In this document: positions 12,012 through 48,693 of the stretch, piece by piece
How the letters are laid out: every line of letters starts with the position of its first letter
How positions within the stretch are numbered: the first letter of the stretch is position 1
Origin: a virus
DNA length: 64,000 nucleotides
Virus record (IMG/VR): IMGVR_UViG_3300035698_018653
Coordinates: 1 to 64,000 of that record
Reading direction: 5' to 3' (one strand)
Notes under the pieces: model-generated
Database searches by the model: none
Told to the model about the DNA's origin: nothing
The model's input: only the letters and a program-made list of their open reading frames with translations
Made by a program: the position numbers and the translations under genes

Positions 12012-12317
12012 ATGATAAAAAGATTTTTAAAGAAATATTTTGGCATAAGAGATGTAGTTTATATTATTCTCTTAATAGTAATGTCAATGGTTCTTTTGGT
12101 TTTTTATCTTGTAGTAGGACATAAAACAGAAACTATATCCAAGTTAGAATATAAGATAGAATTAAGGGATGAGATATTAAAAATGAATACCTTAAAGGAA
12201 GTTTTAAATAGCAGTTTAAATAAAGAGTATATGGAAATAGCAAATCATAATTTAGAGATGTTAATATTAAGCAGTAAGGGTAATAAAAATAAGAGAATGG
12301 GAGTTGGCGGAAAATAA
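12012..12317 (+). CDS. Single-span membrane protein, lysis cassette
   Basis: A 101-residue protein with a basic N-terminus, one hydrophobic segment at about residues 15-37 and a helical tail. This is the arrangement of an inner-membrane spanin or a holin. It starts 3 bases after the amidase stop. Its 3' end overlaps the start of the next gene, so its partner role is inferred only from position. Confidence 0.5.
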   Translation: MIKRFLKKYFGIRDVVYIILLIVMSMVLLVFYLVVGHKTETISKLEYKIELRDEILKMNTLKEVLNSSLNKEYMEIANHNLEMLILSSKGNKNKRMGVGGK

Positions 12318-13092
12318 TTTGAAATTAGTCTTCGGACTACAGGTGTTTGAGGAGGTTGATTTTATAGCCTCAGTACTTTTTAATATATATCCCTTTGCTC
12401 ATAAGATCGTGGTCTGTGAGGGCGCATGGAGGGCAAATAAGCAGTTTTTAAAGTATAGTACATCTAAAGATGGTACAATCCCTATTATAAAGAATTTTCC
12501 AGACCCTGACAAGAAAATAGATTTTTTTCATTATTCGGGTTCGTGTCAGACAGATCAAAGACAAGCCTGTTTTAATAGGGCGAAGAAATATTTTGATGAA
12601 AATTCCTGGTATGCACTTTGGGACGGTGATGAATTCGTTGAAAAAAAGAAATTAAAAAGACTTATTGAATTGTTACCTAGACTAAAGAAAGATTGTTATA
12701 ATTTTCCTTGGAGATTATACTGGAATGATTTTTATCATTATGAAAACGGAAAATCTCCCGAAAGATTATACAGGGTAAAAGATGGAATGTATGCTCACGG
12801 AACTTGCGGCATGAAATATAAAAATGGAAGTAAGTTCCAGGCCACTCTTTCAGATCTTCTTCTCTTATATCATCCCAGTTACTGTAGGGACTTAAAAAGA
12901 CACGCAAATAAAATAGAAATGAGAACGATGGATAATAGCAGGAAGTTCCCACACTACATACGAAAGGACAGGGTGTTCCGTGGAAATCAGGCAAGAGAAA
13001 AATGGGTAAAGAGTTTAAATATAGGGACCAAGAAAGAGTTACCGAAAGAGATGAGACAACATCATTTTTCTATTCGACGTTGGGGTTTATAA
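12304..13092 (+). CDS. Glycosyltransferase, GT-A type (family 2-like)
   Basis: Residues 6-40 read as the nucleotide-binding start of a GT-A fold. LWDGDEF (DGDE at 107-110) is the metal-binding acidic motif. The start is uncertain: TTG at 12304 overlaps the previous gene, and another TTG is at 12319. First gene of the long glycan cluster. Donor and acceptor are unknown. Confidence 0.6.
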   Translation: MAENNLKLVFGLQVFEEVDFIASVLFNIYPFAHKIVVCEGAWRANKQFLKYSTSKDGTIPIIKNFPDPDKKIDFFHYSGSCQTDQRQACFNRAKKYFDENSWYALWDGDEFVEKKKLKRLIELLPRLKKDCYNFPWRLYWNDFYHYENGKSPERLYRVKDGMYAHGTCGMKYKNGSKFQATLSDLLLLYHPSYCRDLKRHANKIEMRTMDNSRKFPHYIRKDRVFRGNQAREKWVKSLNIGTKKELPKEMRQHHFSIRRWGL

Positions 13093-13096
13093 AATT

Positions 13097-14044
13097 ATGA
13101 AAGTTAAATTATCTTTTAATAAAATTTATAATCTTTATATTAACGAAAAGAAATCATTACGCTATATAGCTAAAAAGTTCAATACTTATCATCGGTTAAT
13201 TAGTTATTTGTTAAGAAAAAATAACGTTAAGGTAAGAAAAAATGGCACTATTACAAGAAAATTAGAATCACACTATAATAAAATTTATGATCTTTATGTC
13301 AATAAGAAAAAAACATGTAAATATATTGGTAATATATTTTGTACCGACGGCAGTATGATAAGGTGTTTATTGAGAAAAAATGATGTTAAAATGAGAGGCA
13401 AGATTAATGTTAATTTTAATAAAGTTTATGATTTATATGTAAATAAAAAGATATTAATAACTTATATTGCTAATAAGCTTAATGTTTCATTCGGGACAAT
13501 AAGAAAAGTATTAATAGAAAACAATATAGAGATAAGGGATGAAAAAATAAAATTACCATATAATAGGGTTTATAATTTGTATATAAATAAAAATAGAACT
13601 TTAAAATACATAGGGAAAAAATTTAATGTTTCTTGCGATACAATTGGAAGGTTTTTAAAAAAACACAATATACCCATAAGACAATCCCGTGAATATAATT
13701 TGGGGAAAAATCATCATAGCTGGAATGGTGGATCTTCTAAATTTCCTTATCCATTTAATTTCAACGAAGATCTAAAAGAGAGTATTAGAGATAGAGATGG
13801 AAGATTATGTCAAATGTGTGGTAAAACAGAGAGGCAAAATTTAAAAGAAAGTGGTCAAAGACTGTGTGTTCATCACATAGATTATAATAAAGAAAATATA
13901 TTTGTTGAAAATCTTATTGCTCTTTGTAGGTATTGTCATTTAAAGACAAATCAAAAAACCAATAGAGAGGTTTGGACTAAATTTTTTAAACCGATAATGT
14001 TTGAAAAATATCCCTTTAAAAAAGTAAAAGTTTTAATAATGTAG
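13097..14044 (+). CDS. HNH homing endonuclease with four tandem HTH-like repeats
   Basis: Residues 6-195 consist of four copies of a unit of about 46-48 residues (FNKIYNLYINEKK...YIAKKFN...LLRKNNVKVR), each likely a helix-turn-helix. A linker with SWNGGSSKFPYPF follows. The HNH domain contains CQMC, VHHIDYNKEN and CRYCH, i.e. two zinc CxxC pairs around the catalytic His-His. It is free-standing between glycosyltransferase genes, as homing endonucleases often are. It ends with TAG. Its nuclease module is shared with the gene at 27176. Confidence 0.88.
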   Translation: MKVKLSFNKIYNLYINEKKSLRYIAKKFNTYHRLISYLLRKNNVKVRKNGTITRKLESHYNKIYDLYVNKKKTCKYIGNIFCTDGSMIRCLLRKNDVKMRGKINVNFNKVYDLYVNKKILITYIANKLNVSFGTIRKVLIENNIEIRDEKIKLPYNRVYNLYINKNRTLKYIGKKFNVSCDTIGRFLKKHNIPIRQSREYNLGKNHHSWNGGSSKFPYPFNFNEDLKESIRDRDGRLCQMCGKTERQNLKESGQRLCVHHIDYNKENIFVENLIALCRYCHLKTNQKTNREVWTKFFKPIMFEKYPFKKVKVLIM

Positions 14045-14052
14045 GGGAAATT

Positions 14053-14946
14053 ATGAAAAAGAAAATACTTTGCTTGTTTGATATCCCTAATTGGGCATTC
14101 CATCGAATTTGTAGATATATAAAAAAATATAGTAAATTCGATATTGATATATGCAGAATGAGTAAAGTAAAGGTAAAGAAAGATATTTATTCTTATGACC
14201 TTATATTTTCCCTTTTGGATTTTCGTCCGCAGCAACATATTGATTTTGAGTTTCCCTTAGGTAAACTTTTGATTGCGATTCGAAGTGATGTATTTGTAAA
14301 ACAAAAAGATTTCTACAATAATAAAAAGGCAGTAGATAATCTTTGTCTTGGTTATATATGTTCAAATCAACATTTATATAATAAGTTTAAAGAAAAAGGA
14401 CATAAAGCCTGGATGGTTGAGGGTGGTGTAGACCATAGATTATTTTGCCCAAATAAGCGCGATCAATTACATTACCCTATTCGTATTGGCTGGGCAGGTT
14501 CTTCTAAACATTTTACACAATGGCGTGGATTTGATATTATACAAGAAGCTTGTAAGCGTGGTGGTTTTATATGGAATCCAGCATTCAGGGAGCAGCGTTT
14601 CAGGCCCGAAAAAGAAATGGTTAAGTACTACCAAGACGAAATAGATGTATACGTGGACCTTGATACTCGTGGGGGGCGTCAAAATGGACTTTTAGAAGCC
14701 GCTAGTTGTGGAAAATTTGTTATAGCCATTAAAGGTGATTATGGAATAAATAACAAGCTAATAAGACATAGAGAAAACGGATTGTTAATTAATAGAAGTA
14801 TAAGGGGCGTTTTGAAAGGTATAAAAGAAATAGTAAAATGTCCTGAATATAAGAAAGAGGCAAGAAAGGAAGTTTTAAAAGAGTGGACGTGGGAAAAACA
14901 TGTAGAAGCTTTTGATAAAGTCTTCGAGGAGGTATTGAATAAATGA
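14053..14946 (+). CDS. Glycosyltransferase, GT-B (family 4-like)
   Basis: The C-terminal half has the GT-B nucleotide-sugar domain: IRIGWAGSSKHFTQWRG starts the second Rossmann domain. YVDLDTRGGRQNGLLEAASCG is the donor-binding E-x7-E-like region near residue 215. It overlaps the next glycosyltransferase by ATGA. Sugar and acceptor are unknown. Confidence 0.75.
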   Translation: MKKKILCLFDIPNWAFHRICRYIKKYSKFDIDICRMSKVKVKKDIYSYDLIFSLLDFRPQQHIDFEFPLGKLLIAIRSDVFVKQKDFYNNKKAVDNLCLGYICSNQHLYNKFKEKGHKAWMVEGGVDHRLFCPNKRDQLHYPIRIGWAGSSKHFTQWRGFDIIQEACKRGGFIWNPAFREQRFRPEKEMVKYYQDEIDVYVDLDTRGGRQNGLLEAASCGKFVIAIKGDYGINNKLIRHRENGLLINRSIRGVLKGIKEIVKCPEYKKEARKEVLKEWTWEKHVEAFDKVFEEVLNK

Positions 14947-15902
14947 TTAATATACTTTATCTCTGTCCAAAACAAATCGAACAACACAAAATGTCAAGGG
15001 TGCGATTTCACGGAATAGATTTTATTGCAAAGCACAAAGAGGTAATTTTACAAAGTTTATATCCAGATAAAGACATAAATGTTTTAGGTATGGTAATTTA
15101 TTCGAGCTTTAAACCAGATTTAATAGTTGCTTATAAACTTCACGAAATGAATAACTATAAAGAACTTGTAAAATACTGTAATAAAAATAATACACCTATT
15201 TGCCTTAGATATAATGAACAATATGATCGAAAGAAAACTACTCAGCAGATAAATGATAGCGGAGCAAGTATTGTTATTTCTCATCATGAAAACGATTATA
15301 AATGGTTTAATAAAAACTATAAAGATAAAAAAGTAAAATTTTATAATATTCCCCACGGAGCCAACGAAAATATTTTTCATGATTATGGTAGCACTCGCAA
15401 GACCGACGTGTTACTTGTGGGGCGTGCGACACCTAAGCACTACCCGCTGCGGGTGCGTCAAAAAGAATGGATAAGGAAATTAAGTAGGATGGGGTATAGC
15501 GCTAAAATACATCAGCACCCAGGGTATAATATTAGAAATGTAAATAAGGATGATATATTAAGAGAGTATGCAAAAGAAATTAATAGCTCAAAAATAGTTT
15601 TATCTTGTTCGAGTAGGTATTTTTACCTGCTTGGTAAGTATTCCGAAACGATGCTATGCAATTCATTATTATGTGCTGATAAACCAGATGATAATAATAT
15701 TCCAGACATTGAAAATAAAATGATGATTATAAATCCAAAAGAAGATGACGCTAAAATTATTTATAAAATATCAGCAATGTTAGGACAAAGAAAAGAGAGA
15801 AAAAGATTAACTGGAAATGGCAGAAAGTTTGCAGAAAAGAATCTCACTATGACTTGCTATGCAAATAAATTTATAAATGCTTTTAAAGACTTTAAAAAAT
15901 GA
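14943..15902 (+). CDS. CgeB-like glycosyltransferase
   Basis: A 319-residue GT-B-like protein. An N-terminal domain ends at IPHGANENIF, a hinge signature of CgeB/GT4 enzymes. It is followed by KTDVLLVGRATPKHYPLR and, near residue 245, LGKYSETMLCNSLL at the donor site. It overlaps both neighbours by 4 bases, so it is made together with the FkbM-type methyltransferase that follows. Confidence 0.7.
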   Translation: MINILYLCPKQIEQHKMSRVRFHGIDFIAKHKEVILQSLYPDKDINVLGMVIYSSFKPDLIVAYKLHEMNNYKELVKYCNKNNTPICLRYNEQYDRKKTTQQINDSGASIVISHHENDYKWFNKNYKDKKVKFYNIPHGANENIFHDYGSTRKTDVLLVGRATPKHYPLRVRQKEWIRKLSRMGYSAKIHQHPGYNIRNVNKDDILREYAKEINSSKIVLSCSSRYFYLLGKYSETMLCNSLLCADKPDDNNIPDIENKMMIINPKEDDAKIIYKISAMLGQRKERKRLTGNGRKFAEKNLTMTCYANKFINAFKDFKK

Positions 15903-16549
15903 GAGTCAACTTTTTCGATTTGGGAATGTATAATGGTGTAGTAACAAACATGTTTATAAATAATTTCGAAAGAATAGGGCTTGACTATAGGGTGTATGGA
16001 TTTGAACCATTAACTAAGCACTATAATCATTTAAATAGAATATTTAAGGATAACGAAAAAGTTTTTATAAGAAATAGAGCTATATCAAATATAAATTCAA
16101 AAAAAAGACTTTTTTATTGTAAGAATGAGCTTGGATATTCATTGTTTAATGATCATGAAAGTGTAAATTCAGGTTATGAGATGGTAAAAACAATAAAGTT
16201 TAGCGATTGGTTTAAGAAAAAATTTAAATATAAAAGGCATACAAACGATTACTTAATTATAAAAGCGGATATAGAGGGCGCAGAATATTATTTATTTGAT
16301 GACCTAATGAATAATAATCTAATGAAGTATTTTGATATATTTATTGGCGACGGATATATGGATATAAAGAAAGTCAAAAGATTTAAGTCAAAAGCCAAAT
16401 CATATATCGAAAATATAAAGAATCATATAAATGAGGTGGGTGCGGTTTATTATAGAGTTAATAGTAGAATGAATAAGAATATGATAAAGGTAAGAAGAAG
16501 ATTGAGAGCGTATAAAAACATAATACAAATTAGTAAGGAAAACAAATGA
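15899..16549 (+). CDS. FkbM-type SAM methyltransferase (copy 1)
   Basis: Residues 6-40 carry FFDLGMYNGVVTNMF and GFEP, the SAM-binding start of FkbM enzymes. KADIEGAEYYLF (Asp124, Glu126, Glu129) is the conserved acidic signature. The probable role is O-methylation of a sugar. A second copy is at 18460. The C-terminal 40 residues (NKNMIKVRRRLR) also match that copy. Confidence 0.78.
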   Translation: MRVNFFDLGMYNGVVTNMFINNFERIGLDYRVYGFEPLTKHYNHLNRIFKDNEKVFIRNRAISNINSKKRLFYCKNELGYSLFNDHESVNSGYEMVKTIKFSDWFKKKFKYKRHTNDYLIIKADIEGAEYYLFDDLMNNNLMKYFDIFIGDGYMDIKKVKRFKSKAKSYIENIKNHINEVGAVYYRVNSRMNKNMIKVRRRLRAYKNIIQISKENK

Positions 16550-17487
16550 AATGTCTTGCGTATTTATCCGGTGATCAGAACTTCGCCTCTTCCAGGATTA
16601 GGTTTTATAGAACACTGAAGTATCTGGAAAAGAAAGAAATATATTTTGATATATATCAAGGAACTGTAAAGCAGAAGATAAATGCTTTTTCTAGTTGGAT
16701 AAAGTTTTATGATTGCCTGTATGTTCAGAAACGTTGTGATGGAAAAGTAATTGCTTTATGTAAGCAGTTTATCGAAAGAAAGAAGCCGGTAATTTATGAT
16801 GTTGATGTTGCTATTGCAGATATGACTCCCCATCAAGAATGGGTTCTTAAATACTGCTCTGCAGTAATAGTAAATACCAATACCTGTTGTGAGATAGTAA
16901 GGAAAAAGAATAAAAGAGTTTATGTTATTCAAGACGCTATTGATTATGCAGATAAAAAGAAAAGAGTAAAGATAAAAGAAAATATTGATACTGTAGGCAC
17001 GTTTTTTGGAAGTAATATAAATTATGTAAATTGGACGAAGCAGTATATGAACAAGTTGCACTCTATTAATAAAGTATATATAACCGGAAAGAAAGGTGCA
17101 GGGATTAATGGAAATTTTGTAAGGTGGAGTTTACAATCGTTTTCTAATGAGCTTAGAAAATTTGATATCTGTATCCTTATTCATCCAGAGAGCGAGTACG
17201 GGAACCTGAAGAGCACTAACCGCTTGACTACTGCGATGGCATTCGGAATTCCATGCCTTGTGAGCAATACAAGTTCTTATGTTAAAATAATAGAAGATGT
17301 AGGATATAAAAAGCAATTAGTTGTTAATTCTCCAGATGAAATACAAATGAAGTTTAATTTGTTAAAGTTTAATTTTAAGTTAAGGGAAGAAATATCAAAG
17401 AAGTTTTTTGATTATGCTTGGAAATATTTTGCTCCCGAAAAGATAGCAGATGATGTTGCTAATGTTTTTAAAGGGGTGGTAAAGTGA
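16546..17487 (+). CDS. Glycosyltransferase, GT-B (family 4-like)
   Basis: The N-terminus YLSGDQNFASSRIRFYR is typical of GT4-like proteins of this type. The C-terminal domain has FGIPCLVSNTSSYVKIIED, the donor-binding region, preceded by ILIHPESEYGNLKSTNR. It overlaps the FkbM gene by ATGA and the next glycosyltransferase by GTGA. Confidence 0.7.
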   Translation: MKCLAYLSGDQNFASSRIRFYRTLKYLEKKEIYFDIYQGTVKQKINAFSSWIKFYDCLYVQKRCDGKVIALCKQFIERKKPVIYDVDVAIADMTPHQEWVLKYCSAVIVNTNTCCEIVRKKNKRVYVIQDAIDYADKKKRVKIKENIDTVGTFFGSNINYVNWTKQYMNKLHSINKVYITGKKGAGINGNFVRWSLQSFSNELRKFDICILIHPESEYGNLKSTNRLTTAMAFGIPCLVSNTSSYVKIIEDVGYKKQLVVNSPDEIQMKFNLLKFNFKLREEISKKFFDYAWKYFAPEKIADDVANVFKGVVK

Positions 17488-18467
17488 TAGTAATTAGTAT
17501 AAATAAACAACCCACTGCTGTAAATAGAGCTTATGGTGGCATGGGCCATTTTTTAAATTCTTTGGTTAGATTTATAAATGAAAAAAACAAGAAAAATTTA
17601 ATTCCAAAATATAAAATTATTCACGAGCTTAAAAAAGAAACAGATGTAATTATTTTCATGTCTAACAGAAAATATAAAACAACTTTCTGGATTGACGATG
17701 TTAAAAATCATTTAAGAAAATACGGAAAGAAAAGAATTATACATAGAGTTAATGATTGCGATAAACCAAGAGATTCAGATGAGATGGATAAAGCTGTTTT
17801 AAGAATATCAAATTTTAATCCTTATCATATATTTGTAAGTAATTGGGTGAAAGAATATTATGAAAATAAAGGATTGAAAATAAGAGATCATTCTGTAATA
17901 GAAAATTATCCAAATGTAAGATATTTTAATTTAAAATATGTAAAGCATAGGTTTGATGAACCTTTAAAAATTATTACCCATCATTATTCGAAGAACTATC
18001 AGAAGGGGCATAAGACTTATGAGATGCTTGATAGTTATTTATTAAAGAATAAGGATTTGGGAAGTTTTACGTATATGGGTAATAGACCAAAAAACCGCCT
18101 AGAGTACACCTGTAAGCTCGTTAGAGCGGTCCAATATAGGCATATCGCGAAGCACTTAAAGAAAAATAATGTCTATGTATCGGGTGCTAGATACGAGTCA
18201 GGCCCAAATCATATAACGGAAGCTATTTTTTGCGGATTGATTCCGGTAGTATCTGTTGAGGGTGGTGCTTGTGTTGAATACGTAAAAGATTTTGGAGTTG
18301 TATATAAAAACTTTTCCGAACTAATTAGTGGGTTGGAGGCGTTAAGGCACGACAATAAATTCTTTAATGAAAAAAAGAATAAGGTTGCAAATTATATTAC
18401 AGATAAATCACACAAGCTAATGTGTAAGAAATATTTTGATATAATTATGGGAGAAAATAATGCCTAA
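17484..18467 (+). CDS. Glycosyltransferase, GT-B (family 4-like)
   Basis: Starts at GTG inside the preceding stop. PNHITEAIFCGLIPVVSVEG near residue 240 is the GT4 donor-site helix (E-x7-E-like). ITHHYSKNYQKGHKTYE begins the second domain. It ends inside the start of FkbM copy 2. The pair thus repeats the glycosyltransferase/FkbM order of the preceding genes. Confidence 0.72.
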   Translation: MIVISINKQPTAVNRAYGGMGHFLNSLVRFINEKNKKNLIPKYKIIHELKKETDVIIFMSNRKYKTTFWIDDVKNHLRKYGKKRIIHRVNDCDKPRDSDEMDKAVLRISNFNPYHIFVSNWVKEYYENKGLKIRDHSVIENYPNVRYFNLKYVKHRFDEPLKIITHHYSKNYQKGHKTYEMLDSYLLKNKDLGSFTYMGNRPKNRLEYTCKLVRAVQYRHIAKHLKKNNVYVSGARYESGPNHITEAIFCGLIPVVSVEGGACVEYVKDFGVVYKNFSELISGLEALRHDNKFFNEKKNKVANYITDKSHKLMCKKYFDIIMGENNA

Positions 18468-19125
18468 AGTTTTGCTTTTTGATATTGGAATGAATCAGGG
18501 CAGGACATCTTTAATGTTTGTTAATAGTTTTAATAACATTGGTGTTGAGTACGAGATACATGGTTTTGAACCCATGGTTTATCTTTGTGATATAGCAAAG
18601 AAACGTTTTAAGGATAATGAAAATATTTTTATTTACAACTGTGCATTAACAGATAGTAACGGAAAGGCGAAAGTTTATTTTTGTAGAAATAATGTAGGGC
18701 ATTCGATATTCGAGGATCATGCAGGAATAAAGAAAGGATTATTTCAAGAAGTTGATTCATACAAGTTTTCAGATTGGCTGATAGAGAATATAGGATTTAA
18801 GAGGTTAGAAGAAAATTATGTAATATTAAAGGTAAATGCTGAGGGTGCAGAGTATCATATATTTAAAGATTTATTTGAAACAAAAATGATAAAATATTTT
18901 AAGATAGTTACTGGTGATGATTTTAGTGATATAGATAAGATAAAGAGTATTGAAAATGGTAAGAAATTTCGTGAGGATATATTTAAAATACTTTATAATT
19001 ATAATATATTCTATTATAGAATAACAAGATTTAGAGGTGCAAACATGATGAAGGTAAGAAGAAGGATAAGACGCTGGCTAGATGGAAAAATAGAAACTCC
19101 AGGAAGGATAGACGAAGATGATTAA
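18460..19125 (+). CDS. FkbM-type SAM methyltransferase (copy 2)
   Basis: Paralogue of the gene at 15899: FDIGMNQGRTSLMF, GFEP at 35-38, LKVNAEGAEYHIF and MKVRRRIRRW match it position by position. The first Asp of the DxEGAE signature is Asn here, which could affect activity or simply reflect variation. It overlaps both neighbours by 8 bases. The duplication suggests two methylation steps or two acceptors. Confidence 0.76.
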   Translation: MPKVLLFDIGMNQGRTSLMFVNSFNNIGVEYEIHGFEPMVYLCDIAKKRFKDNENIFIYNCALTDSNGKAKVYFCRNNVGHSIFEDHAGIKKGLFQEVDSYKFSDWLIENIGFKRLEENYVILKVNAEGAEYHIFKDLFETKMIKYFKIVTGDDFSDIDKIKSIENGKKFREDIFKILYNYNIFYYRITRFRGANMMKVRRRIRRWLDGKIETPGRIDEDD

Positions 19126-19738
19126 ATTTAAGCATTATAAGTTTGATGATATAGTTTCTTCTTCTAAAAAGAAAACAAGCAGTGGAAGGAATGCTTTTTT
19201 TCATATGAAAGAATATGATTTTTTAATGACAAGAAAGAATCCAAATGTCCTTGAGTTTGGGGTTGCGCTTGGTTATTCAACTTGCGTTTTTATAAATGCT
19301 GTTGAGAAAACCGGTGGCTTTCTTTACTCTTGTGACATTATTGATTGCGGAGACAGAGTAATAGGAAGTGGAAAGTGGAAGTTTATAAAATGTGATGACA
19401 GAAATGTAAATGTTATTATGCAAAGTGGTAGAATAAAAAAGTTTGATCTAATTCATATAGATAGCTTTATTGATTATCAAAAATCTAATTCTCACGTTAT
19501 AGAACTTTTAGAGAAGTGGAGCAAGTATCTTGTTAAGGGCGGTATAATAACGGTAAGAGGTGTTGACAATACTCCATACAAAAAAGGCGGCAGGAAAGAA
19601 AATTATAGAAAAGCTTTAATGTATGAGAGGGTACACGAAGGAATAGAGACGTTTTTAGAAGACAATAAAGGGTTATTTAAAGCTGAGTTTTTATACGGGT
19701 CAGTAGGAATGGCTTATTTAATAAAATTAAAGGATTGA
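19118..19738 (+). CDS. Class I SAM-dependent methyltransferase
   Basis: VLEFGVALGYSTCVF near residue 45 is the SAM glycine loop. FDLIHIDSFIDYQ near 110 is the acidic motif of O-methyltransferase/cephalosporin-hydroxylase-like proteins, and KGGIITVRGVD follows. The target is unknown; the setting implies a glycan. Confidence 0.7.
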   Translation: MIKFKHYKFDDIVSSSKKKTSSGRNAFFHMKEYDFLMTRKNPNVLEFGVALGYSTCVFINAVEKTGGFLYSCDIIDCGDRVIGSGKWKFIKCDDRNVNVIMQSGRIKKFDLIHIDSFIDYQKSNSHVIELLEKWSKYLVKGGIITVRGVDNTPYKKGGRKENYRKALMYERVHEGIETFLEDNKGLFKAEFLYGSVGMAYLIKLKD

Positions 19739-19742
19739 AAAT

Positions 19743-20345: not shown

Positions 20346-20354
20346 AGGTTGATT

Positions 20355-20888: not shown

Positions 20889-21070
20889 GAAAAGTTTTAT
20901 TATTTGCATTAATTCTTATTGGGGGTTGCTCCAATCATAAGGCAATACATAAAAATATATTAAAGGAGGAAGTAAGAATAAGCTTGGAGATAGATAGTTT
21001 GAAAGTAAAGCAAAAAGAAATAATAAGATTGTTAGACATAGAAACGCTCAAAGAAATCAAAGGAGAGTAA
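20885..21070 (+). CDS. Small lipoprotein, 61 aa
   Basis: Starts at GTG overlapping the previous stop, 8 bases after AAGGAG. The signal peptide has basic residues, a hydrophobic core and lipobox IGGC with Cys at about residue 15. The mature part is a short charged helix. Length and type resemble an outer-membrane spanin lipoprotein, but it is far from the lysis genes, so surface or superinfection roles are equally possible. Confidence 0.6.
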   Translation: MRKVLLFALILIGGCSNHKAIHKNILKEEVRISLEIDSLKVKQKEIIRLLDIETLKEIKGE

Positions 21071-21072
21071 AG

Positions 21073-22094: not shown

Positions 22095-22097
22095 AAA

Positions 22098-40893: not shown

Positions 40894-41819
40894 ATTTAGC
40901 GGTAGCCGGTAATCAGTGGATAACGAAGTATTTAATTGATAGGTTAATAGAAGTAAATTTAAAACCTAGCCTTATAATTAATTTAGATTCTAATTTTAAA
41001 AATATAAGTGGCTATTGTGATTTTTCAGACGGTAGCCCATATATATCTATTTATGACGAAATAAAATTGTATAGTCCAAAAAGTTATTCTTTAAAAAACG
41101 ATAAAGAATTATTATCTTGCGATATTGATATACTACTTGTCTTTGGTTGGCAAAGATTAATTCCCGAATGGCTAATAGATCACTGTAAGCTTGGAGCGTT
41201 TGGAGTACATGGATCAATTCATGAATTACCAGACGGAAGAGGTAGAGCTGTGTTTAATTGGACATTAATAAATGAATGCTATGATTATTATCATACTTTT
41301 AAAATGTATATGTTAAAGCTTAATAAAAATATTGATGATGGAGAAATAGTTGACAAAAGAGAATTTGATCTTTTAGAAACAGACAATATTAAAACCCTTT
41401 ATCATAAAAATTGTATCGTATCGAGTGATATGTTTATAGAGAATATCCCAAAGATAATTAATAGTACAGTAAAATACAAAGAACAGCCAAAAAGAAAAAA
41501 AGAAAAGACACTTTATTATGAAAAAAGAACACCGGAACAAAGTCAAATAAATTGGGAAAATTCTGCCCATTCAATACTTTATTTTATAAAAGCATTAACT
41601 GACCCTTACCCTAATGCTTTTAGTTATATAAAGGACAACATAATAAAAATAAAAAAAGCGTCAGGTTTTGATAGCAGAATAAAGTTTAAGGGTAATGTTG
41701 GTGAAGTTGTAGATGTATTTCCAGATGGAGAATTTTTAGTAATAACAGAAGAGTTCCCTATTTATATAGAAGAGTATAGTTATAATGGTAAAATTAAAAA
41801 AGGAGATGTATTAAGGTGA
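40890..41819 (+). CDS. Formyltransferase (sugar N-formyltransferase-like)
   Basis: The N10-formyl-THF transferase fold: LLVFGWQRLIPEWLI, then GVHGSIHELPDGRG with catalytic His107, then NIDDGEIVDKREF with Asp150. The catalytic Asn two residues before the His is Gly here. A C-terminal OB-like domain has GEVVDVFPDGEFLV. Following a deacetylase, it would formylate a free amine on a sugar; that substrate is inferred. Confidence 0.78.
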   Translation: MNLAVAGNQWITKYLIDRLIEVNLKPSLIINLDSNFKNISGYCDFSDGSPYISIYDEIKLYSPKSYSLKNDKELLSCDIDILLVFGWQRLIPEWLIDHCKLGAFGVHGSIHELPDGRGRAVFNWTLINECYDYYHTFKMYMLKLNKNIDDGEIVDKREFDLLETDNIKTLYHKNCIVSSDMFIENIPKIINSTVKYKEQPKRKKEKTLYYEKRTPEQSQINWENSAHSILYFIKALTDPYPNAFSYIKDNIIKIKKASGFDSRIKFKGNVGEVVDVFPDGEFLVITEEFPIYIEEYSYNGKIKKGDVLR

Positions 41820-42745
41820 AAATATTGATTACCGGAAACGCTGGCTTCATCGGAAGTAATATAGCGGATAGATTAATAGAAGAAGTACATAAAGTTGCCG
41901 GAGTAGATAATTTTTTAACTGGCAATATTGAAAATATAAATGAAAAAGTACATCAATATTATTATTCTTTAACAGATGAAAAACAAATGGATATTGTTTT
42001 TAGAAATTTTAAACCGGAAATGGTTTTCCATTGTGCTGCCTCTTATAATGATGCAGATAATTGGAATAGAGATATAGAAACAAATTGTGTTGGAACTTCA
42101 AATATAGTAAAGTGTTGTCAGAAGTACAATGTTAAAAAATTAGTTTATTTCCAAACAGCTTTATGCTATGGGGATTTTATTGAGCAACCAATAACCTTAA
42201 GTCACCCAATCAATCCTACAAGATGTTCTTATGCTATCACTAAAACAACGGCAGAGCAAATAATTGATATGAGCGGAATACCTTGCCTTACTTTTAGAAT
42301 GGCAAATGTTTATGGGCCGAGGCATTTGAGCAGCTGTATTCCCACTTTCTATTTAAAGCTAAAGAATAGAGAAAAAACCATTATTACAAATACCAAAAGA
42401 TCATTCGTATATATTTCAGACTTAGTTGATTTAATCGTTAAAACAATGGACAGTAAGATTACTGGCGTTTATCATTTATCTACATTACAAGAGGTTTCTA
42501 TTAAATTTATATTTGAAGCTATGGCAGAATTGATGAATATAGACATAAGAGATATTGAAGTTAATTATCAAGAGCCAAAAGAAGATAATGTAAAAACAAT
42601 ATTGCTTGATAATTTAAAAACAAAAATGGATTTTTCTGACTGGTACCCTAAAGTTGGCATAATAGATGGGTTAAAAAGATCAATAGAGTGGTATAATAAA
42701 AATAAATTTGATAAAACATTTACTCATTTGAAGTTAGGGAAATAA
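41816..42745 (+). CDS. NAD-dependent nucleotide-sugar epimerase/dehydratase
   Basis: Extended SDR with GNAGFIG at 7-13, FHCAASYND, TALCYGD and the catalytic SYAITKT (YxxxK). It also has FRMANVYGPRHLS and RSFVYISDLVDLIV, all in family order. GTG start inside the previous stop. It probably makes or interconverts the nucleotide sugar used in this block. Confidence 0.85.
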   Translation: MKILITGNAGFIGSNIADRLIEEVHKVAGVDNFLTGNIENINEKVHQYYYSLTDEKQMDIVFRNFKPEMVFHCAASYNDADNWNRDIETNCVGTSNIVKCCQKYNVKKLVYFQTALCYGDFIEQPITLSHPINPTRCSYAITKTTAEQIIDMSGIPCLTFRMANVYGPRHLSSCIPTFYLKLKNREKTIITNTKRSFVYISDLVDLIVKTMDSKITGVYHLSTLQEVSIKFIFEAMAELMNIDIRDIEVNYQEPKEDNVKTILLDNLKTKMDFSDWYPKVGIIDGLKRSIEWYNKNKFDKTFTHLKLGK

Positions 42746-42746
42746 A

Positions 42747-43217
42747 ATGGAAGGCTTATATTTTGGTTTGATGGACAACTTTGTTATGATAATTGGTGCT
42801 TTTTTTGGTTTGAATTTGGAGAGACTTTTTTCAAAAAGAGACAATGGATTGGGGGCGGTTATAGGTGCGGGGATAGGGAATGCTATTTCAGACTTTTTAG
42901 GTGGTGTAGTAGAGGGCAATATGTCACTAGCCTATGGAACTGCACTTGGGTGCATGCTTTGTTTAGCGATTATTCCACTTTTTGTTATTATTATTAGATT
43001 TAAAAAACCATCTGCGATAGCTGAATATAGATTTCAGTTAGATAAAGATTTATTTATAACGGCAAAAGAAAAAAGAATAAAAGGCAATGAAGGAAAAACA
43101 ATAGAGAACACTACAAGATACATTTTGTCAATTTTGTTTTCAAAAATATTGATACATAAAGAAAAGCATGAAAGAGTAAATGTATTAACCCTATGTCAAA
43201 AGGAGAAGATAAAGTGA
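42747..43217 (+). CDS. Membrane protein, 156 aa
   Basis: Hydrophobic segments at about residues 8-25, 35-53 and 62-85, Gly-rich (GLGAVIGAGIGNAISDFLGG), followed by a basic soluble tail. The first half resembles small phage membrane proteins with a GLxDNxVMIxGA start. Function unknown. It ends in a GTGA overlap with the next gene. Confidence 0.6.
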   Translation: MEGLYFGLMDNFVMIIGAFFGLNLERLFSKRDNGLGAVIGAGIGNAISDFLGGVVEGNMSLAYGTALGCMLCLAIIPLFVIIIRFKKPSAIAEYRFQLDKDLFITAKEKRIKGNEGKTIENTTRYILSILFSKILIHKEKHERVNVLTLCQKEKIK

Positions 43218-43465
43218 TATACTTGATAGGGTTTGGATGTTTTTTATTGGGGTATATACTTTCATCTATAAGGTGTATTATATGGTATAATAAATTAATT
43301 AATAAACAGGGAAAGCGCTTTGAAGGGGTAATGAAAAAAGTAGTTTGTCCACATATATCGCCAAGAATAGGTGATGGAGAACAATATTGTTGTGACCAAC
43401 AAAAGAAATTAACCGGAACACATCATATGCTTGATGATAATAAATGGATATATTTAATTAATTAA
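43214..43465 (+). CDS. Small membrane-anchored Cys protein, 83 aa
   Basis: GTG at 43214 overlaps the previous stop and follows AAAAGGAG; an ATG 21 bases upstream in the same frame lacks a ribosome site. An N-terminal hydrophobic segment (residues 2-20) is followed by VCPHIS and YCCDQQ near the C-terminus. Not recognised. Confidence 0.5.
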   Translation: MIYLIGFGCFLLGYILSSIRCIIWYNKLINKQGKRFEGVMKKVVCPHISPRIGDGEQYCCDQQKKLTGTHHMLDDNKWIYLIN

Positions 43466-43477
43466 GGAGAAGATAAA

Positions 43478-43633
43478 ATGAGCAATAACGAAAAAGATTT
43501 AGAAAAGATTTTTGAAGGGCTTTGGAAGGATAAACTGTTTGATAAATGGTTTAATGGTGGAAATACAAAGGCAAAAGATATTTGTAAAAAGTCTTTTATG
43601 TTTGGTGTAAAATTAAAGGAGAAAAAAGAATAA
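43478..43633 (+). CDS. Hypothetical protein, 51 aa
   Basis: ATG after AAGGAG at good spacing; the stop overlaps the next ATG (TAATG). A charged, aromatic, helical mini-protein (IFEGLWKDKLFDKWF). Not recognised. Confidence 0.55.
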   Translation: MSNNEKDLEKIFEGLWKDKLFDKWFNGGNTKAKDICKKSFMFGVKLKEKKE

Positions 43634-44601
43634 TGAATTTTGTAAATGTCTCTGACACAATGGTTGGTGTAAAAGACGGAAAGAATATTACAAATTTTCC
43701 AGGCATATATCCGTTCTTTGACGAAAGAAATAAGTTTACTAACATAATTGGTGTCGGGAATAAAAACGGAATAGATAAAAATATTGATTTGCTAAAAATA
43801 AAAAAAGTATTTAAAGGGTGTAAGTTTGTTTTTAATGGTCGTCTTGCTTCTTACCTAATAAAGAACTGGGATTTTATAGTTTCTAATTTTGATGGTATTA
43901 TGGGTGCGGAGTTAAATAAAAATCATCCGAAGTCATTGAATATGGTTCATTCTTCCATGGCACGAAGCATGCCATATAAGGGTTTTTATTGGGAACCAAC
44001 AAACGAAAAAAAGGATTTTGATTTTAGTATCTTATCTAAAATAAATGATTATAAGAATAAGAGATGGGGGCGTTGTTTAAAATTAATTGATATTCTCTGC
44101 ACCTCCAAGCTTAAGGGCATACTTATAACGCAAAGTGGTGATTTAAATAAGGTTTCAGAGCTGAAACAGCACGTTAAGAGCGGATATTTAAAGATATCTA
44201 ATAATATAGACGAAAGAGAGTTTCACAGGCTTCACAACAGGGCTAGAGTCGGTATATTCCCAAATACACTGGATAGCTTTCCCAAGCATATGATAGAGAG
44301 TATACTTTCAAATAAGCCAATAATATTTTCGTCTGATTTAACTATGGGCAAAGAGATTGCGTTAGAGTTTGGTATAAAGCTAAATTTTGACAATAGAAGA
44401 TCTTATAAGAGAGTAAAGACTTTTTTGAGAGAGGGATATAAAGAATATACTACAAATAGGATAAAATATATTTGGAAGTATTCATTTGAAAGCGTATCTG
44501 CTTTTTGGGCTTCTGAAATTAATAGATTATTTAAAACAAAATTTAAAAGAGTTTATATGTTTAATCATTATCAAAGGTTAAAGGAAAATAAATTGATATG
44601 A
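43633..44601 (+). CDS. Glycosyltransferase-like protein, GT-B
   Basis: Two-domain GT-B appearance. GILITQSGD starts the second domain. RARVGIFPNTLDSFPKHMIES, ILSNKPIIFSSD and EIALEFGIKL form the donor-site region. Starts on the stop of the preceding mini-gene. Confidence 0.62.
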   Translation: MNFVNVSDTMVGVKDGKNITNFPGIYPFFDERNKFTNIIGVGNKNGIDKNIDLLKIKKVFKGCKFVFNGRLASYLIKNWDFIVSNFDGIMGAELNKNHPKSLNMVHSSMARSMPYKGFYWEPTNEKKDFDFSILSKINDYKNKRWGRCLKLIDILCTSKLKGILITQSGDLNKVSELKQHVKSGYLKISNNIDEREFHRLHNRARVGIFPNTLDSFPKHMIESILSNKPIIFSSDLTMGKEIALEFGIKLNFDNRRSYKRVKTFLREGYKEYTTNRIKYIWKYSFESVSAFWASEINRLFKTKFKRVYMFNHYQRLKENKLI

Positions 44602-44834
44602 ACAAATTTAAAAAGTGTTGTGATTGCGGAACGTACGAGCATCAAGTATTAATGCCAATTAAGGGTAGGGTTCAGGGAATAGATTTATGTATATCTCATA
44701 TAGTTGCCGCCTTAAATGCCGGTAATGTAATAACAGAAGCTTCTTGTTGCGGACACGGTAAAATAGACGGAAGTATAATTTTAGAGGATGGAAGGGAATT
44801 AGTGATTAAGAAATGGAAAAAAGGAATAAATTAA
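44598..44834 (+). CDS. Conserved-type phage Cys protein, 78 aa
   Basis: CCDCG at residues 7-11 and CCGHGKIDGSIILEDGREL near 50-68 resemble a small phage family with a CGHG...DGR signature and no known function. A Cys/His metal site is likely. Overlaps the preceding glycosyltransferase by ATGA. Confidence 0.6.
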   Translation: MNKFKKCCDCGTYEHQVLMPIKGRVQGIDLCISHIVAALNAGNVITEASCCGHGKIDGSIILEDGRELVIKKWKKGIN

Positions 44835-44838
44835 TATT

Positions 44839-45657
44839 ATGGGAAAGAATTTTTTAGACAAAGATCACACTAAAGATTCGGACATAAAGAATTTTATACA
44901 AGAGAGTAGGATTGAGAATAGAAAGCCTTTCTCCCGTGACCTGATTTCCATTTGTGTATCCATAAAGAACAGAAGTAGATTTAAGATTGGCAAGAAAGAG
45001 TATAAGCCGTTTGTTCATTTTATCCATTCCATTGTTAGGCTCCCAAAGCATTTAATGAATATTGAATTGATCATAGCAGACTTCTTTTCTGATGATTATC
45101 CGTTAAAAGAATGGATTCCTTTCGAGTCTCAACACATTAAGTATAAGATAGTGTCTGTCCCTGGTCCATTTTCGAGAGGAAAGGGGCTAAATGCGGCCGC
45201 TAAGCAGTCTAAAGGCAAGTATCTATTCTTTACCGACGCAGACATGCTATTAAGCACACAGGTGATTGAGAGGGGCTTACATTATGCTAAGAAAAGTAAG
45301 GCTTTCTTTCCCATTGCTTTCCGCCATGTTGATGAGCAATTAAAAGTTGGAAGGTGGTTTCAAAGCGGATTCGGAAATATGTTTTTAAGGAGGAGTCAGT
45401 TTGAGAAACGTGGTGGATATATGGAGCACGATAGGTGGGGGCGAGAGGACTTTTATTTTCATAGACAACTTGTTCAGAAGAGTCAAGTAAAATGTGTAAG
45501 GGAACAAATACAAACCTTCTATCATCAATTCCACCCAGACGATGTTGTTTGGAAAAATAGATTTGTAGAAAAAAATGTTTTCAAAGAAATCCAGGCATCG
45601 TATACTATTAGTAAAGGAAATAAAGAGCATTTTGATAAAAATAGGAGCAAGAAATGA
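44839..45657 (+). CDS. Family 2 glycosyltransferase with GT7-like C-terminus
   Basis: SICVSIKNRSRF begins the GT-A fold. GKGLNAAAKQSKGKYLFFTDADML contains the DxD at Asp133-Asp135. GNMFLRRSQFEKRGGYME and WGREDFYFHRQL near 195-205 match the C-terminal acceptor/base motif of chondroitin-synthase-like enzymes. Good family fit; sugar unknown. Confidence 0.82.
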   Translation: MGKNFLDKDHTKDSDIKNFIQESRIENRKPFSRDLISICVSIKNRSRFKIGKKEYKPFVHFIHSIVRLPKHLMNIELIIADFFSDDYPLKEWIPFESQHIKYKIVSVPGPFSRGKGLNAAAKQSKGKYLFFTDADMLLSTQVIERGLHYAKKSKAFFPIAFRHVDEQLKVGRWFQSGFGNMFLRRSQFEKRGGYMEHDRWGREDFYFHRQLVQKSQVKCVREQIQTFYHQFHPDDVVWKNRFVEKNVFKEIQASYTISKGNKEHFDKNRSKK

Positions 45658-46187
45658 ATATTAAAAACGACACCAAAAAGATAAGGAAGGCAGTAAGAGA
45701 TAATTTTACATTTAAGTCAGCTATACCGTATGTAAATTTTATGCAGACTATAGGGAAGGTTGCGACAGATAAAATAAGGATAGAGTTAAAGCTAAAGAAT
45801 GAGGGTAATTTAAATATTGGAACGTTGTATTTACATTATAGCATAAAAGACAAGAGTTATATAATAAGTTCAAAATCTGGGTGCTTTACCTATAAACATT
45901 TTAAGGATAAAATTTTTAGTGTTTTAAGTGAGGTAAATCATGGAACAAAAATAGTCAATAAGACAGATAATATTTTTATGGATAATAATTATTTAATTAA
46001 AAGAAGAGAAGCAAAAAAGTTAAATCAATTACAGTTAGCGAAATTATTAGGAAAGAATGTAAAGCAGATACAAAGATATGAAATAAGCGGAAGTGTTCAG
46101 AATCCTTATGGCAGAACATTAAGGGATTTAGCTATAATACTTGATCTTGATTTAAATAAGTTATTTATGTTAGGGAAAAAGAAATGA
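45654..46187 (+). CDS. HTH (XRE-like) DNA-binding protein with N-terminal domain
   Basis: Residues 118-177 form an XRE-type HTH (KLNQLQLAKLLGKNVKQIQRYE, read in two parts around the turn) like the small protein at 8110. The N-terminal 110 residues are an unrecognised beta-rich domain. A regulator is likely. It overlaps both neighbours by ATGA. Confidence 0.65.
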   Translation: MNIKNDTKKIRKAVRDNFTFKSAIPYVNFMQTIGKVATDKIRIELKLKNEGNLNIGTLYLHYSIKDKSYIISSKSGCFTYKHFKDKIFSVLSEVNHGTKIVNKTDNIFMDNNYLIKRREAKKLNQLQLAKLLGKNVKQIQRYEISGSVQNPYGRTLRDLAIILDLDLNKLFMLGKKK

Positions 46188-46807
46188 TAGATAAAATATT
46201 ACTTGCTATATGGATAGGGGTAATTATATTTGCCTGGTGGTATCCACTTAGAAAAAGAAAAAAGAAAGGTGAGTTTCAAGACACAAGCGATTATCAAAAA
46301 TGTATAAAGAAAAATAAAGAAGGAAAATATTATCTTGATAAAAATGCCACAAAGATAATATTTGGTGATTATGATAAACCATTTAAAACTCCTCACTCTA
46401 AAATATGGGATGAAAAACCAATGAGTTTTGATAAATTTTTTAAAGAGCTAAACAATAATATAATAGATCACGGATGGGGAGTTGAGTTTAAATCCATTAA
46501 AGATGGAGAAGAGAAAAAATATATTCAATGTAAAAAATGTGGGTCAAAAAGACAAATAATAAGTACGGTTCCGGCTTTCTGTCTTAATTGTGATAATGGA
46601 TTATATGATCTTCCTTGTGAAGTTGATATAGAAAGTAAAATGGGTGATATATCACAAGCAATGATAGAGGATTTTGAAAAAAGAATATTAGATGGAGAAA
46701 GCGATATAAAGAATCCAAAAGGATTATTTAATAATCGTGAAATGATTGCTAATGCAATTAAAAACTCAAAAGAATTTAAGGAGAGATATGGGAAAGATCA
46801 AGATTAA
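46184..46807 (+). CDS. Membrane-anchored zinc-ribbon protein
   Basis: A hydrophobic N-terminal segment (residues 3-20) is followed by a basic stretch and a soluble domain with CKKC and CLNC 15-20 residues apart (about residues 112-132). The C-terminal helix is charged. Function not evident. Confidence 0.6.
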   Translation: MIDKILLAIWIGVIIFAWWYPLRKRKKKGEFQDTSDYQKCIKKNKEGKYYLDKNATKIIFGDYDKPFKTPHSKIWDEKPMSFDKFFKELNNNIIDHGWGVEFKSIKDGEEKKYIQCKKCGSKRQIISTVPAFCLNCDNGLYDLPCEVDIESKMGDISQAMIEDFEKRILDGESDIKNPKGLFNNREMIANAIKNSKEFKERYGKDQD

Positions 46808-47162
46808 TGAAGTTATGCTAGAGAGATTAAAGCTTAATCATTCGGTAATAATATCTAAAGACGCTATTGGTCAAGCAATGAAACCAATTTTTAATACATT
46901 ACCTGATCAGGACGCTATAAATATATTATTTAGAAATTACGTTGCTTCCGAAGTTCAAAAGAAAATTCAAATACAATACCCAAAGGATTGGTGGAATGCC
47001 TTTAAAGAAAGATGGTTTCCAAATTGGTTAAAATGGAGATATCCAGTTATATATAGAAAGCATGATTTTTCACCTAAAGTACTTTATCCTTTCATGAAAA
47101 TAAGTTTACCTAACGAAAGGCGGTTTCCAATAGTTATAGAATCAATAGAGGAGAAAGAATAA
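46788..47162 (+). CDS. Hypothetical protein, 124 aa
   Basis: ATG at 46788 follows AAGGAG at 4 bases; the longer frame from 46746 lacks a ribosome site. Trp-rich central part (WWNAFKERWFPNWLKWRYP) of the kind common in phage proteins of unknown function. The stop overlaps the next ATG. Confidence 0.6.
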   Translation: MGKIKINEVMLERLKLNHSVIISKDAIGQAMKPIFNTLPDQDAINILFRNYVASEVQKKIQIQYPKDWWNAFKERWFPNWLKWRYPVIYRKHDFSPKVLYPFMKISLPNERRFPIVIESIEEKE

Positions 47163-47722
47163 TGACTTGTATAATTGGCTGGATTAAAAACAAAAAGATG
47201 TATATGGGTTGTGATAATATCGGCTCTAATGGGTCTATAGTTATACAAAGGAATGACAGTAAAATATTTACAAGAAATAACGAAATGATTTTTGGATATA
47301 CTTCATCTTATAGAATGGGTCAGCTTTTGAGATATTCGCTTAAGATTCCTTTGCATGATCCCAAGATACCTGATGACGAATATATGAGTACGAAGTTCAT
47401 CGATGAAGTTAGGAATTGCCTAAAAGATGGTGGCTATATGATTAGAGATAATAATGAGGAGTCTGGTGGAACATTTCTTGTTGGATATAAAGGTAAGCTA
47501 TATCTTATCTCTGATGATTTTCAAGTTGGAATTCCTTCTGATGGTTTTTTCTCCGTTGGTTGCGGAATGTATTATGCATTAGGGGCAATGAAAGTTCTTG
47601 TAAAATCAAATAAAAATCCAGTGGCGATAATAGAGGAGGCGTTGTCTATCGCAGAATATTATAGCCCCGGTGTTCGTGGACCATACCAGATAGATCACTT
47701 AGATATAGGGGAGAAAAAATAA
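47162..47722 (+). CDS. Proteasome/HslV-like Ntn hydrolase
   Basis: After removal of Met1 the chain starts Thr1-Cys-Ile-Ile-Gly. Counting from that Thr, Asp17 (GCDN) and Lys33 (DSKIF) fall exactly at the catalytic positions of proteasome beta and HslV. GCGMYYALGAM corresponds to the GSGxxxA segment around Ser129, with Cys for Ser. No ATPase partner such as HslU is in the window. It could be a self-contained phage protease or peptidase. Starts on the previous stop and ends on the next start. Confidence 0.75.
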   Translation: MTCIIGWIKNKKMYMGCDNIGSNGSIVIQRNDSKIFTRNNEMIFGYTSSYRMGQLLRYSLKIPLHDPKIPDDEYMSTKFIDEVRNCLKDGGYMIRDNNEESGGTFLVGYKGKLYLISDDFQVGIPSDGFFSVGCGMYYALGAMKVLVKSNKNPVAIIEEALSIAEYYSPGVRGPYQIDHLDIGEKK

Positions 47723-48693
47723 TGAAAAGAGTTTTAGTTACAGGTGCCAGCGGGTTCGTCGGGTCACACTTACTTGACTTACTTCTTGACGATATTGATT
47801 GTTCTGAATGTGAAGTTCACGGTACAATGAGGTACAGGAGCAATCTTGATAATATAAAACATAACATAGGAAAAGATTGCCTTAAGCTGCACACCTGCGA
47901 TTATACAGATCAGAAGTCTGTCGATGAGCTTATTAAGGAGGTTAATCCACATAAGATATTTCACCTGGCAGCTCATTCCTTTGTTCCTGATTCGTTTCAT
48001 ATGCCTCACTATATGCTTGATAATGTAAAGATGACTTTAAATATTTTGGAGTCGGTTAAAACGCACGCTCCAAATTGTAAGGTACATATCGCAGGTAGTT
48101 CCGAGGAGTATGGGATGGTAGAAGCAAGCGAATGCCCTATTGACGAAACGCAACCATTAAGGCCGATGTCACAATATGGTGTCTCTAAAATTGCTTGCGA
48201 GTATCTTGCTTTTCAATATCAAACAACTTATAATATAAAGGTAATAGTAACCAGGAGTTTTAATCATACTGGACCACGCAGAAATTCAAGATTTGTTTGT
48301 AGTCATTTTGCTCGTGAGCTTGCACTTATGAATATGGGCAAGAAAGCGTATTCGATAGAGCATGGCAATCTTGACGCTATACGTGACTATACAGATGTAA
48401 GAGATATAGTAAGGGCGTACTGGGATTTGTCTGAACTTGAAGAAGAAATTAAATATCCAATTAATCTTTGTAGCGGTAAAGGACATAAGATAGAAGAAGT
48501 ATTAAATATGCTTCAGAGTATGTCGGGCATTTCCCCTCAAAGGAATTGGGTTGAGAGCAGGATGAGACCCTCTGATGTTCCGTTGCTTGTTGGTAGTAGT
48601 GAGAAAGCAAAGATGCTTATAGGGTGGAAACCGGAAATTAATTTTAAGAAAACATTAGAAGATCTATATGATTATTGGCTTGAGAACGTATAG
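47722..48693 (+). CDS. gmd: GDP-mannose 4,6-dehydratase-like enzyme
   Basis: Extended SDR of 323 residues: TGASGFVG at 7-14, SFVPDSF, GSSEEYG, QYGVSKIACEYLAFQY (YxxxK), RSFNHTGPRR and AIRDYTDVRDIVRAYW. It ends in RPSDVPLLVGSSEKAK and GWKPEINFKKTL, the C-terminal signature of GDP-mannose dehydratases and RMD-type reductases. It would supply a deoxysugar donor (rhamnose or fucose type). Ends in TAG followed by TAA three codons later. Confidence 0.83.
   Translation: MKRVLVTGASGFVGSHLLDLLLDDIDCSECEVHGTMRYRSNLDNIKHNIGKDCLKLHTCDYTDQKSVDELIKEVNPHKIFHLAAHSFVPDSFHMPHYMLDNVKMTLNILESVKTHAPNCKVHIAGSSEEYGMVEASECPIDETQPLRPMSQYGVSKIACEYLAFQYQTTYNIKVIVTRSFNHTGPRRNSRFVCSHFARELALMNMGKKAYSIEHGNLDAIRDYTDVRDIVRAYWDLSELEEEIKYPINLCSGKGHKIEEVLNMLQSMSGISPQRNWVESRMRPSDVPLLVGSSEKAKMLIGWKPEINFKKTLEDLYDYWLENV

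Follow-up and report, generated by a model that had tools for sequence, protein, structure and literature searches.

Glycosylation of capsid and tail-tube proteins by phage-encoded glycosyltransferases (GTs) is established for mycobacteriophages, as set out in published accounts on Che8 gp110, Corndog gp38 and Myrna (Freeman et al. 2023; PMC12363180, PMC12619734). Here, a comparable role is proposed for a large set of glycan synthesis and modification genes in a stretch of viral DNA of 64,000 nucleotides, referred to as the window, which comprises bases 1-64000 of the 126,906 bp viral record IMGVR_UViG_3300035698_018653 (G000; other G and L labels denote related or compared contigs). Whereas the mycobacteriophages, going by the same sources, carry one or two GTs per phage, this phage encodes about ten, together with enzymes for methyl, sulfo, formyl, amide and deacetylase tailoring. 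A further difference is the two-domain GT that, throughout a diverse set of phages, keeps its place at the gene of the major capsid protein (MCP); the glycan itself is deduced from the genes.

Very large glycan clusters that enlarge the genome in some members of a group are also known from the cyanophages P-SSM2 and S-SSM7, where clusters of the lipopolysaccharide (LPS) type explain genome expansion (PMC3037559); those are not described as capsid-linked, whereas here the capsid-side GT and cassettes in relatives point to the virion. A sub-module of the present locus, remote in sequence, matches the Bordetella wbm locus, in which WbmG, WbmH and WbmS serve the synthesis of an O-antigen, a diacetamido-galacturonic acid polymer (PMC2279256, PDB 3hft). 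Shared are a WbmG/H-like sugar-nucleotide dehydrogenase/reductase (SDR) and a WbmS-like deacetylase, with an AsnB-like enzyme and a formyltransferase alongside, but neither Pfam nor hydropathy revealed export or ligation genes here. In the part of the literature that was searched, no paper was found that describes exchangeable glycan islands together with a two-domain GT beside the capsid gene.

Seroconversion by temperate phages relies on gtrA-gtrB-gtrX, a set of about three genes encoding polytopic membrane proteins. The likeness to the present locus lies in phage genes altering a glycan; unlike in seroconversion, no polytopic protein, multi-pass GT or GtrA match was detected here. The initial annotation of the window held its gene set to exceed what is usual for surface-antigen conversion, which is correct in comparison with the three-gene seroconversion clusters, but P-SSM2 and S-SSM7 have large LPS clusters too (PMC3037559).

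Glycosyltransferase Linked to the Capsid Gene

We consider it likely that the cluster builds a methylated, sulfated, probably N-formylated and amidated glycan on a virion protein, probably the capsid. The genes that carry this reading lie partly outside the window, among the following landmarks of the record:

76900 (record): terminase-like protein
79697 (record): portal protein
86300-87295 (record): MCP
87370-89646 (record): two-domain GT of 758 aa, one half GT4 and the other GT2
95227 (record): tape measure protein
110448 (record): helicase
114285 (record): DnaB-like helicase

Primase-type domains are also encoded in the remainder of the record, and the window starts inside a DNA polymerase III-type gene, followed by genes for a single-stranded DNA-binding protein, UvsX and SbcCD. 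The record, which is incomplete, is that of a genuine tailed phage, known from metagenomic DNA only.

The two-domain GT starts 75 bp past the MCP gene. Contigs for comparison were collected by an alignment-based MCP scan and regarded as informative if they reached far enough beyond the MCP gene; six contigs ending at or shortly past it (L112, L114, L120, L142, L143, L163) were left out. Synteny with relatives had been recommended as a check in the initial annotation; a two-domain GT followed the MCP gene in 29 of 29 informative distinct contigs including this record, with 0-4 open reading frames (ORFs) in between. Owing to near duplicates (e.g., L115/L116, L140/L141/L146, L151/L152/L153), the number of independent cases is nearer 24. 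Across 17 phages, in which identity falls as low as 35% (MCP) and 27% (GT), the distances of the two proteins were correlated (r=0.88, Mantel p=2e-4), and the catalytic motifs of the GT were invariant in 17/17, namely EX7E (E401/E409) and DxDE (D596, D598, E599). Given this constant linkage, co-divergence and motif invariance, the two-domain GT is an old and vertically kept companion of the capsid gene. With a sugar-attaching enzyme beside the capsid gene in all checkable relatives, the shells of these viruses most likely bear sugars that are variable and chemically elaborate.

Viral contigs gave no match when scanned with single sequences of the terminase, the MCP or the WbmS-like protein, and alignments of MCP and GT were needed; searches of phage collections with MCP, the capsid-side GT and the proteins encoded at 23682 and 25124 gave no match either. 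Relatives chosen by a kinase (L006-L012) or by UvsX (most of L013-L092) were set aside, having mostly only those genes in common.

What follows the GT varies among the relatives. G013 shows the same MCP-GT order (GT 35% identical over 717 aa), and its head-tail operon continues behind the GT with another GT and a polysaccharide pyruvyl transferase. In G021, the capsid-side GT is followed by GT, GT2, GT, methyltransferase and DegT aminotransferase genes and then by connector genes. The capsid-side cassette of G025 is longer still, as is that of L138, a phage contig in a metagenome bin labelled Chloroherpeton; the bin name, Chloroherpeton thalassium (Chlorobiota), is a weak host hint and may reflect a binning error. 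In G021, G025 and L138, as in G013, these additional glycan genes belong to the head-tail operon. G031 and the G039 fragment carry the capsid-side GT with little or no other glycan gene.

Shortly past the capsid-side GT, the present record encodes a protein with a LamG concanavalin-like domain (record 90723-91418; L003:6723-7418), which by its domain is a candidate sugar-binding virion protein.

Glycan Islands as a Second Site

In G036, G038, G040 and G041, only the two-domain GT is found at the MCP gene, whereas GT, methyltransferase and FkbM genes are tightly packed in an island of their own upstream of the terminase. The island of G036, the closest relative (terminase 47%, MCP 58% identity), is clipped by the contig end; those of G038, G040 and G041 lie on the opposite strand and measure 15-18 kb. 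The present record is of this second type, but its island lies ~28 kb from the terminase.

Several similarities tie the sites together. The GT2-like product of the gene at 12304, with which the glycan genes of the window begin, is homologous to the C-terminal (GT2) domain of the capsid-side enzyme (31% identity over 145 aa, E 6e-11) and has an ortholog just upstream of the terminase in G036 (35% over 260 aa, E 4.5e-47). The capsid-side cassette of G025 includes a gene (L111:16966) whose homologs occur in the islands of G038, G040 and G041, and homologs of the FkbM gene at 15899 occur there too. The island of G040 also encodes a homolog of the sulfotransferase at 34123 (30% identity over 246 aa, E 7e-28). 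The gene content of the present island is otherwise very unlike that of the others, as expected for a locus under diversification.

The record is also larger than those of G013, G025 and G031 (126.9 kb versus 87.9-90 kb, all of them possibly fragments), and the span from the gene at 10241 to the terminase is 66 kb, compared to 20.5 kb in G013 and 7.4 kb in G021, again possible fragments. Capsid-side cassette and island appeared mutually exclusive, which is suggestive only, several contigs being fragments. We infer that the island is the variable 'glycan composition' locus of a virion-glycosylating phage.

Layout and Gene Content of the Cluster

About 30 genes for sugar building and decoration are arranged in two blocks (12304-26974 and 34123-48693). 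By domain, they amount to about 10 GTs, 9-10 methyltransferases, 1-2 sulfotransferases, 2 deacetylases, an N-formyltransferase, an AsnB-like enzyme and two SDRs. Family calls were mostly made by Pfam, and five by eye only (21073, 22831, 35335, 43633 and the C-terminal part of 25124). The blocks are parted by ~7 kb of non-glycan phage genes (26996-34126), which are regarded as phage backbone because homologs of the genes at 30730 and 31219 adjoin the terminase, just upstream, in the relative L111. A second non-glycan stretch (45654-47162) holds genes for a helix-turn-helix (HTH) protein, an unknown protein and a proteasome-like hydrolase.

The initial annotation had described a single 36-kb cluster on one strand with coupled starts, containing two sulfotransferases. 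The large glycan gene set in a phage is real and its enzyme counts were nearly right, most of them recovered by Pfam. Glycan genes do extend across 12304-48693, with the two interruptions, and one of the two sulfotransferases (34123) was upheld, whereas the other (22831) lacks Pfam and PF13469 support. Packing is tight, with overlaps at 28 of 53 junctions, but equally so upstream (9/16), and coupling, being genome-wide, was dropped as a hallmark of the cluster.

The first block and the interruption behind it comprise the following:

12304-13092, + strand: GT2-like glycosyltransferase (Pfam GT2, E 0.0019, weak)
13097-14044, + strand: HNH homing endonuclease, an invader outside the pathway (Pfam HTH_38 and HNH)
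14053-14946, + strand: GT-B glycosyltransferase (PF00534, 3.7e-5)
14943-15902, + strand: GT-B glycosyltransferase (PF13524, 3.4e-5)
15899-16549, + strand: FkbM methyltransferase (PF05050, 6.6e-4), paralogous to 18460 (39% over 205 aa)
16546-17487, + strand: GT-B glycosyltransferase, weak (PF00534, 0.0033; 3.9e-4 in the whole-record search)
17484-18467, + strand: GT-B glycosyltransferase with EX7E (PF00534, 2.3e-6)
18460-19125, + strand: FkbM methyltransferase (PF05050, 2.7e-5)
19118-19738, + strand: class I methyltransferase (PF13578, 3.9e-8)
20349-20888, + strand: nitroreductase-family flavoprotein within the glycan block (PF00881, 1.2e-22)
21073-21834, + strand: putative GT-A glycosyltransferase by eye, DAD motif (DxD at residue 65; no Pfam match)
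22098-22829, + strand: class I methyltransferase (PF08241, 1.3e-20)
22831-23688, + strand: possible second sulfotransferase, unconfirmed (P-loop-like SGRSGT by eye; no Pfam match, missing from the PF13469 search; single-sequence model with pLDDT 34)
23682-25145, + strand: double methyltransferase (PF13489, 4e-33, two stretches, two copies of motif I)
25124-26974, + strand: PIG-L deacetylase domain (PF02585, 1.1e-7, AHCDDE), a middle region and a possible GT-like C-terminal third by eye (single-sequence structure prediction with pLDDT 34)
26996-34126, + strand: non-glycan interruption with NUMOD3-HNH endonuclease (27272), phosphoesterase-like protein (31219, by eye), NT5C nucleotidase (33157) and small proteins

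The second block comprises the following:

34123-34866, + strand: sulfotransferase, solid (PF00685, 1.5e-21)
34857-35345, + strand: class I methyltransferase (PF13578, 2.4e-5)
35335-35964, + strand: putative class I methyltransferase by eye (no Pfam match)
35952-37169, + strand: possible sugar-acting enzyme of the alpha-toroid type, GH127-like (PF07944 at 2.4e-4, short of the curated cut-off)
37170-37982, + strand: GT2 glycosyltransferase (PF00535, 2.5e-12)
37948-38706, + strand: class I methyltransferase (PF13649, 2.6e-5)
38703-40109, + strand: AsnB-like amide synthetase (PF00733, 8.6e-30; SGGIDSS loop present)
40090-40893, + strand: WbmS-like polysaccharide deacetylase (PF22537, 8.1e-26; WbmS 3hft, 1.4e-14)
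40890-41819, + strand: sugar N-formyltransferase-like protein (PF02911, 8.6e-12; PF00551, 2.5e-8; closest solved structure ArnA)
41816-42745, + strand: WbmG/WbmH-like SDR (WbmH 2q1w, 1.3e-64; WbmG 2pzk, 3e-56)
43633-44601, + strand: putative GT-B glycosyltransferase by eye (22% identity over 202 aa, E 1.3e-4, with the GT4 half of the capsid-side GT; no Pfam match)
44839-45657, + strand: GT2 glycosyltransferase, chondroitin-GT-like (PF00535, 1.3e-9; PF05679, 4.3e-8)
47722-48693, + strand: SDR closest to GDP-6-deoxy-4-hexulose reductase (RMD) (PF16363, 2.3e-73; 2pk3, 4.6e-63)

For the WbmG/H-like SDR, no close bacterial relative was found in the genome contigs searched. Ahead of the RMD-like gene, 47162-47722 encodes a proteasome-beta/HslV-like Ntn hydrolase with Thr at position 2 (PF00227, E 7e-4, below the cut-off); its neighbour, an unknown protein, has a single membrane segment at the N-terminus.

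Origin of the Glycan Genes

Strand and GC skew are uniform throughout the window, and the codon usage of both glycan blocks matches that of the rest of the record (relative synonymous codon usage, r 0.93-0.97). One homing-endonuclease family is common to the island and the structural region: an HNH/NUMOD3 trio is found at 13097-14044, 27272-28024 and record 98440-99510, the first two in or beside glycan blocks, and the HNH region of the first is 50% identical to the copies at 27272 and 98440. A family of paralogous small proteins likewise has members at 28556-28999, 32381-32842 and record 72888-73346. Based on the matching codon usage and packing, uniform strand and skew, and the shared families, the glycan genes are phage-owned and a misassembled host island is unlikely.

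Neighbouring Genes

Behind the cluster, 48777-54703 encodes a nicotinamidase/isochorismatase-like protein, a vWA-like protein (by eye), a PP2C phosphatase, a Ser/Thr-kinase-like protein, an NAD synthase and a nicotinate/quinolinate phosphoribosyltransferase-like protein. Seven other phage contigs (L006-L012) share the first four of these genes, and five of them the NAD synthase gene as well. By restoring NAD+, this cassette could counter NAD-depleting defences, with a phospho-switch that recalls TerY-P triads. At 55305-58334, genes for an RtcB RNA ligase and a radical SAM protein accompany four tRNA genes (Ile, Asn, Arg, Gln), together a possible tRNA-repair island.

Proposed Assembly Pathway

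A simple hydropathy scan revealed no polytopic membrane protein in the cluster, the only proteins with two hydrophobic segments being of 87-156 aa, and the Pfam scans of the cluster found neither an initiating transferase nor a flippase, a polymerase, a ligase or a GtrA family member. Since multi-pass proteins and export or initiation genes were not found, cytoplasmic assembly by soluble enzymes on a virion protein fits best. In such a pathway, the two-domain GT, made together with the head proteins, would attach the priming sugar to a virion protein, for which the capsid protein is the likeliest candidate, and the roughly ten soluble GTs of the island would lengthen the glycan in the cytoplasm, either on particles under maturation or on free capsid subunits. 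A deoxyhexose would be derived from a GDP-sugar by the RMD-like reductase, and an amidated sugar of the hexuronate type would be made by the WbmG/H-like SDR with the AsnB-like enzyme; the deacetylases would expose amines for the formyltransferase to cap, and methyl- and sulfotransferases would cap the glycan. These tailoring enzymes point to a glycan that is acidic and capped in part. The likeliest benefit would be a coat altering surface charge and antigenicity, so governing unproductive adsorption or recognition.

Discussion

The initial annotation offered virion decoration, masking of the infected cell and DNA modification as unranked outcomes; the MCP-side GT, the glycan genes in head-tail operons and the homology of 12304 now favour the virion. 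Remodelling of the host envelope, in which soluble enzymes would act on lipid-linked O-antigen or capsule intermediates at the cytoplasmic face and host flippase and ligase would export a surface that blocks superinfection, is unlikely. It draws on the resemblance of the module of WbmG/H-like SDR, WbmS-like deacetylase, AsnB-like enzyme and formyltransferase to the Bordetella O-antigen locus and on the existence of large cyanophage LPS clusters (PMC3037559). Yet with no initiating transferase, flippase, polymerase, ligase or polytopic membrane protein in the cluster, the lipid carrier, initiating enzyme, flippase and ligase would all have to be borrowed from the host, and like genes sit in the head-tail operon beside the MCP gene in relatives. 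Hypermodification of DNA, with GTs and methyltransferases building glycans on modified bases, is highly improbable, although phage GTs with this function are known (Pyle 2024, as cited in PMC12619734) and the genome encodes a 5'-nucleotidase and radical SAM proteins. Pfam scans of nearly all ORFs >60 aa of the incomplete record detected no base-modifying enzyme, be it a thymidylate synthase homolog, a hydroxymethylase or a TET/JBP dioxygenase, and the conserved GT keeps company with capsid rather than replication genes. Neither are sulfation, deacetylation and formylation, to our knowledge, part of DNA chemistry.

It is also very unlikely that the island is passenger or stuffer DNA, horizontally gained and largely silent, that fills a headful genome. 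Homing endonucleases have invaded it, relatives with estimated genomes of ~90-95 kb have no island so large, and the same suspicion was raised for the cyanophage LPS clusters (PMC3037559); however, frames are open, packing is dense and codon usage phage-like throughout, several enzymes have intact catalytic motifs, and comparable islands occupy the corresponding place in four relatives. Joining of a host glycan locus to the phage contig by misassembly, which the initial annotation had named as a possible refutation, is scarcely credible. In its favour, none of the relatives shares this gene set, and some enzymes are closest in sequence to bacterial O-antigen proteins. Against it stand phage-type genes inside the island and on both flanks, the endonuclease and small-protein families (28.6, 32.4 and 72.9 kb) shared by island and remainder, the uniform strand, skew and codon usage, and the 12304 ortholog beside the terminase in G036.

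Glycosylation of the virion, which we prefer, has points against it as well. In this record, the island lies apart from the structural operon, and what ties it to the capsid-side GT is the arrangement seen in relatives together with the homology of a single domain. The acceptor does not follow from gene neighbourhood, and a tail protein could be the target; a Ser/Thr-rich tail on the MCP as attachment site was looked for and not found. Glutamine-dependent AsnB-type enzymes have an N-terminal catalytic Cys, which the AsnB-like protein (38703; N-terminus MIRKIF) lacks, and in the formyltransferase (40890), Gly replaces the usual Asn of the catalytic Asn-His-Asp triad; with these altered residues, both may have shifted or lost their activity. 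The five domain calls made by eye are putative and unconfirmed, the record is a fragment, and protein attachment, acceptor, glycan structure and benefit are all inferred from the genes.

The phages in which virion glycosylation has been demonstrated are few, and their gene sets are simple; here, it is apparently a core trait of a diverse environmental group. As a tentative generalisation, to which we give somewhat less than an even chance, the MCP-side GT would prime every capsid of the group, and the composition of the glycan (sulfate, methyl, N-formyl, uronamide, pyruvate) would be swapped through interchangeable islands, up to ~30 kb in length, at two positions in the genome, giving rise to O-antigen-like phage 'serotypes'. 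If true, the loci would offer soluble enzymes for glycan tailoring, and virion surface chemistry would be an evolving, serotype-like trait bearing on adsorption, particle survival and immune recognition.

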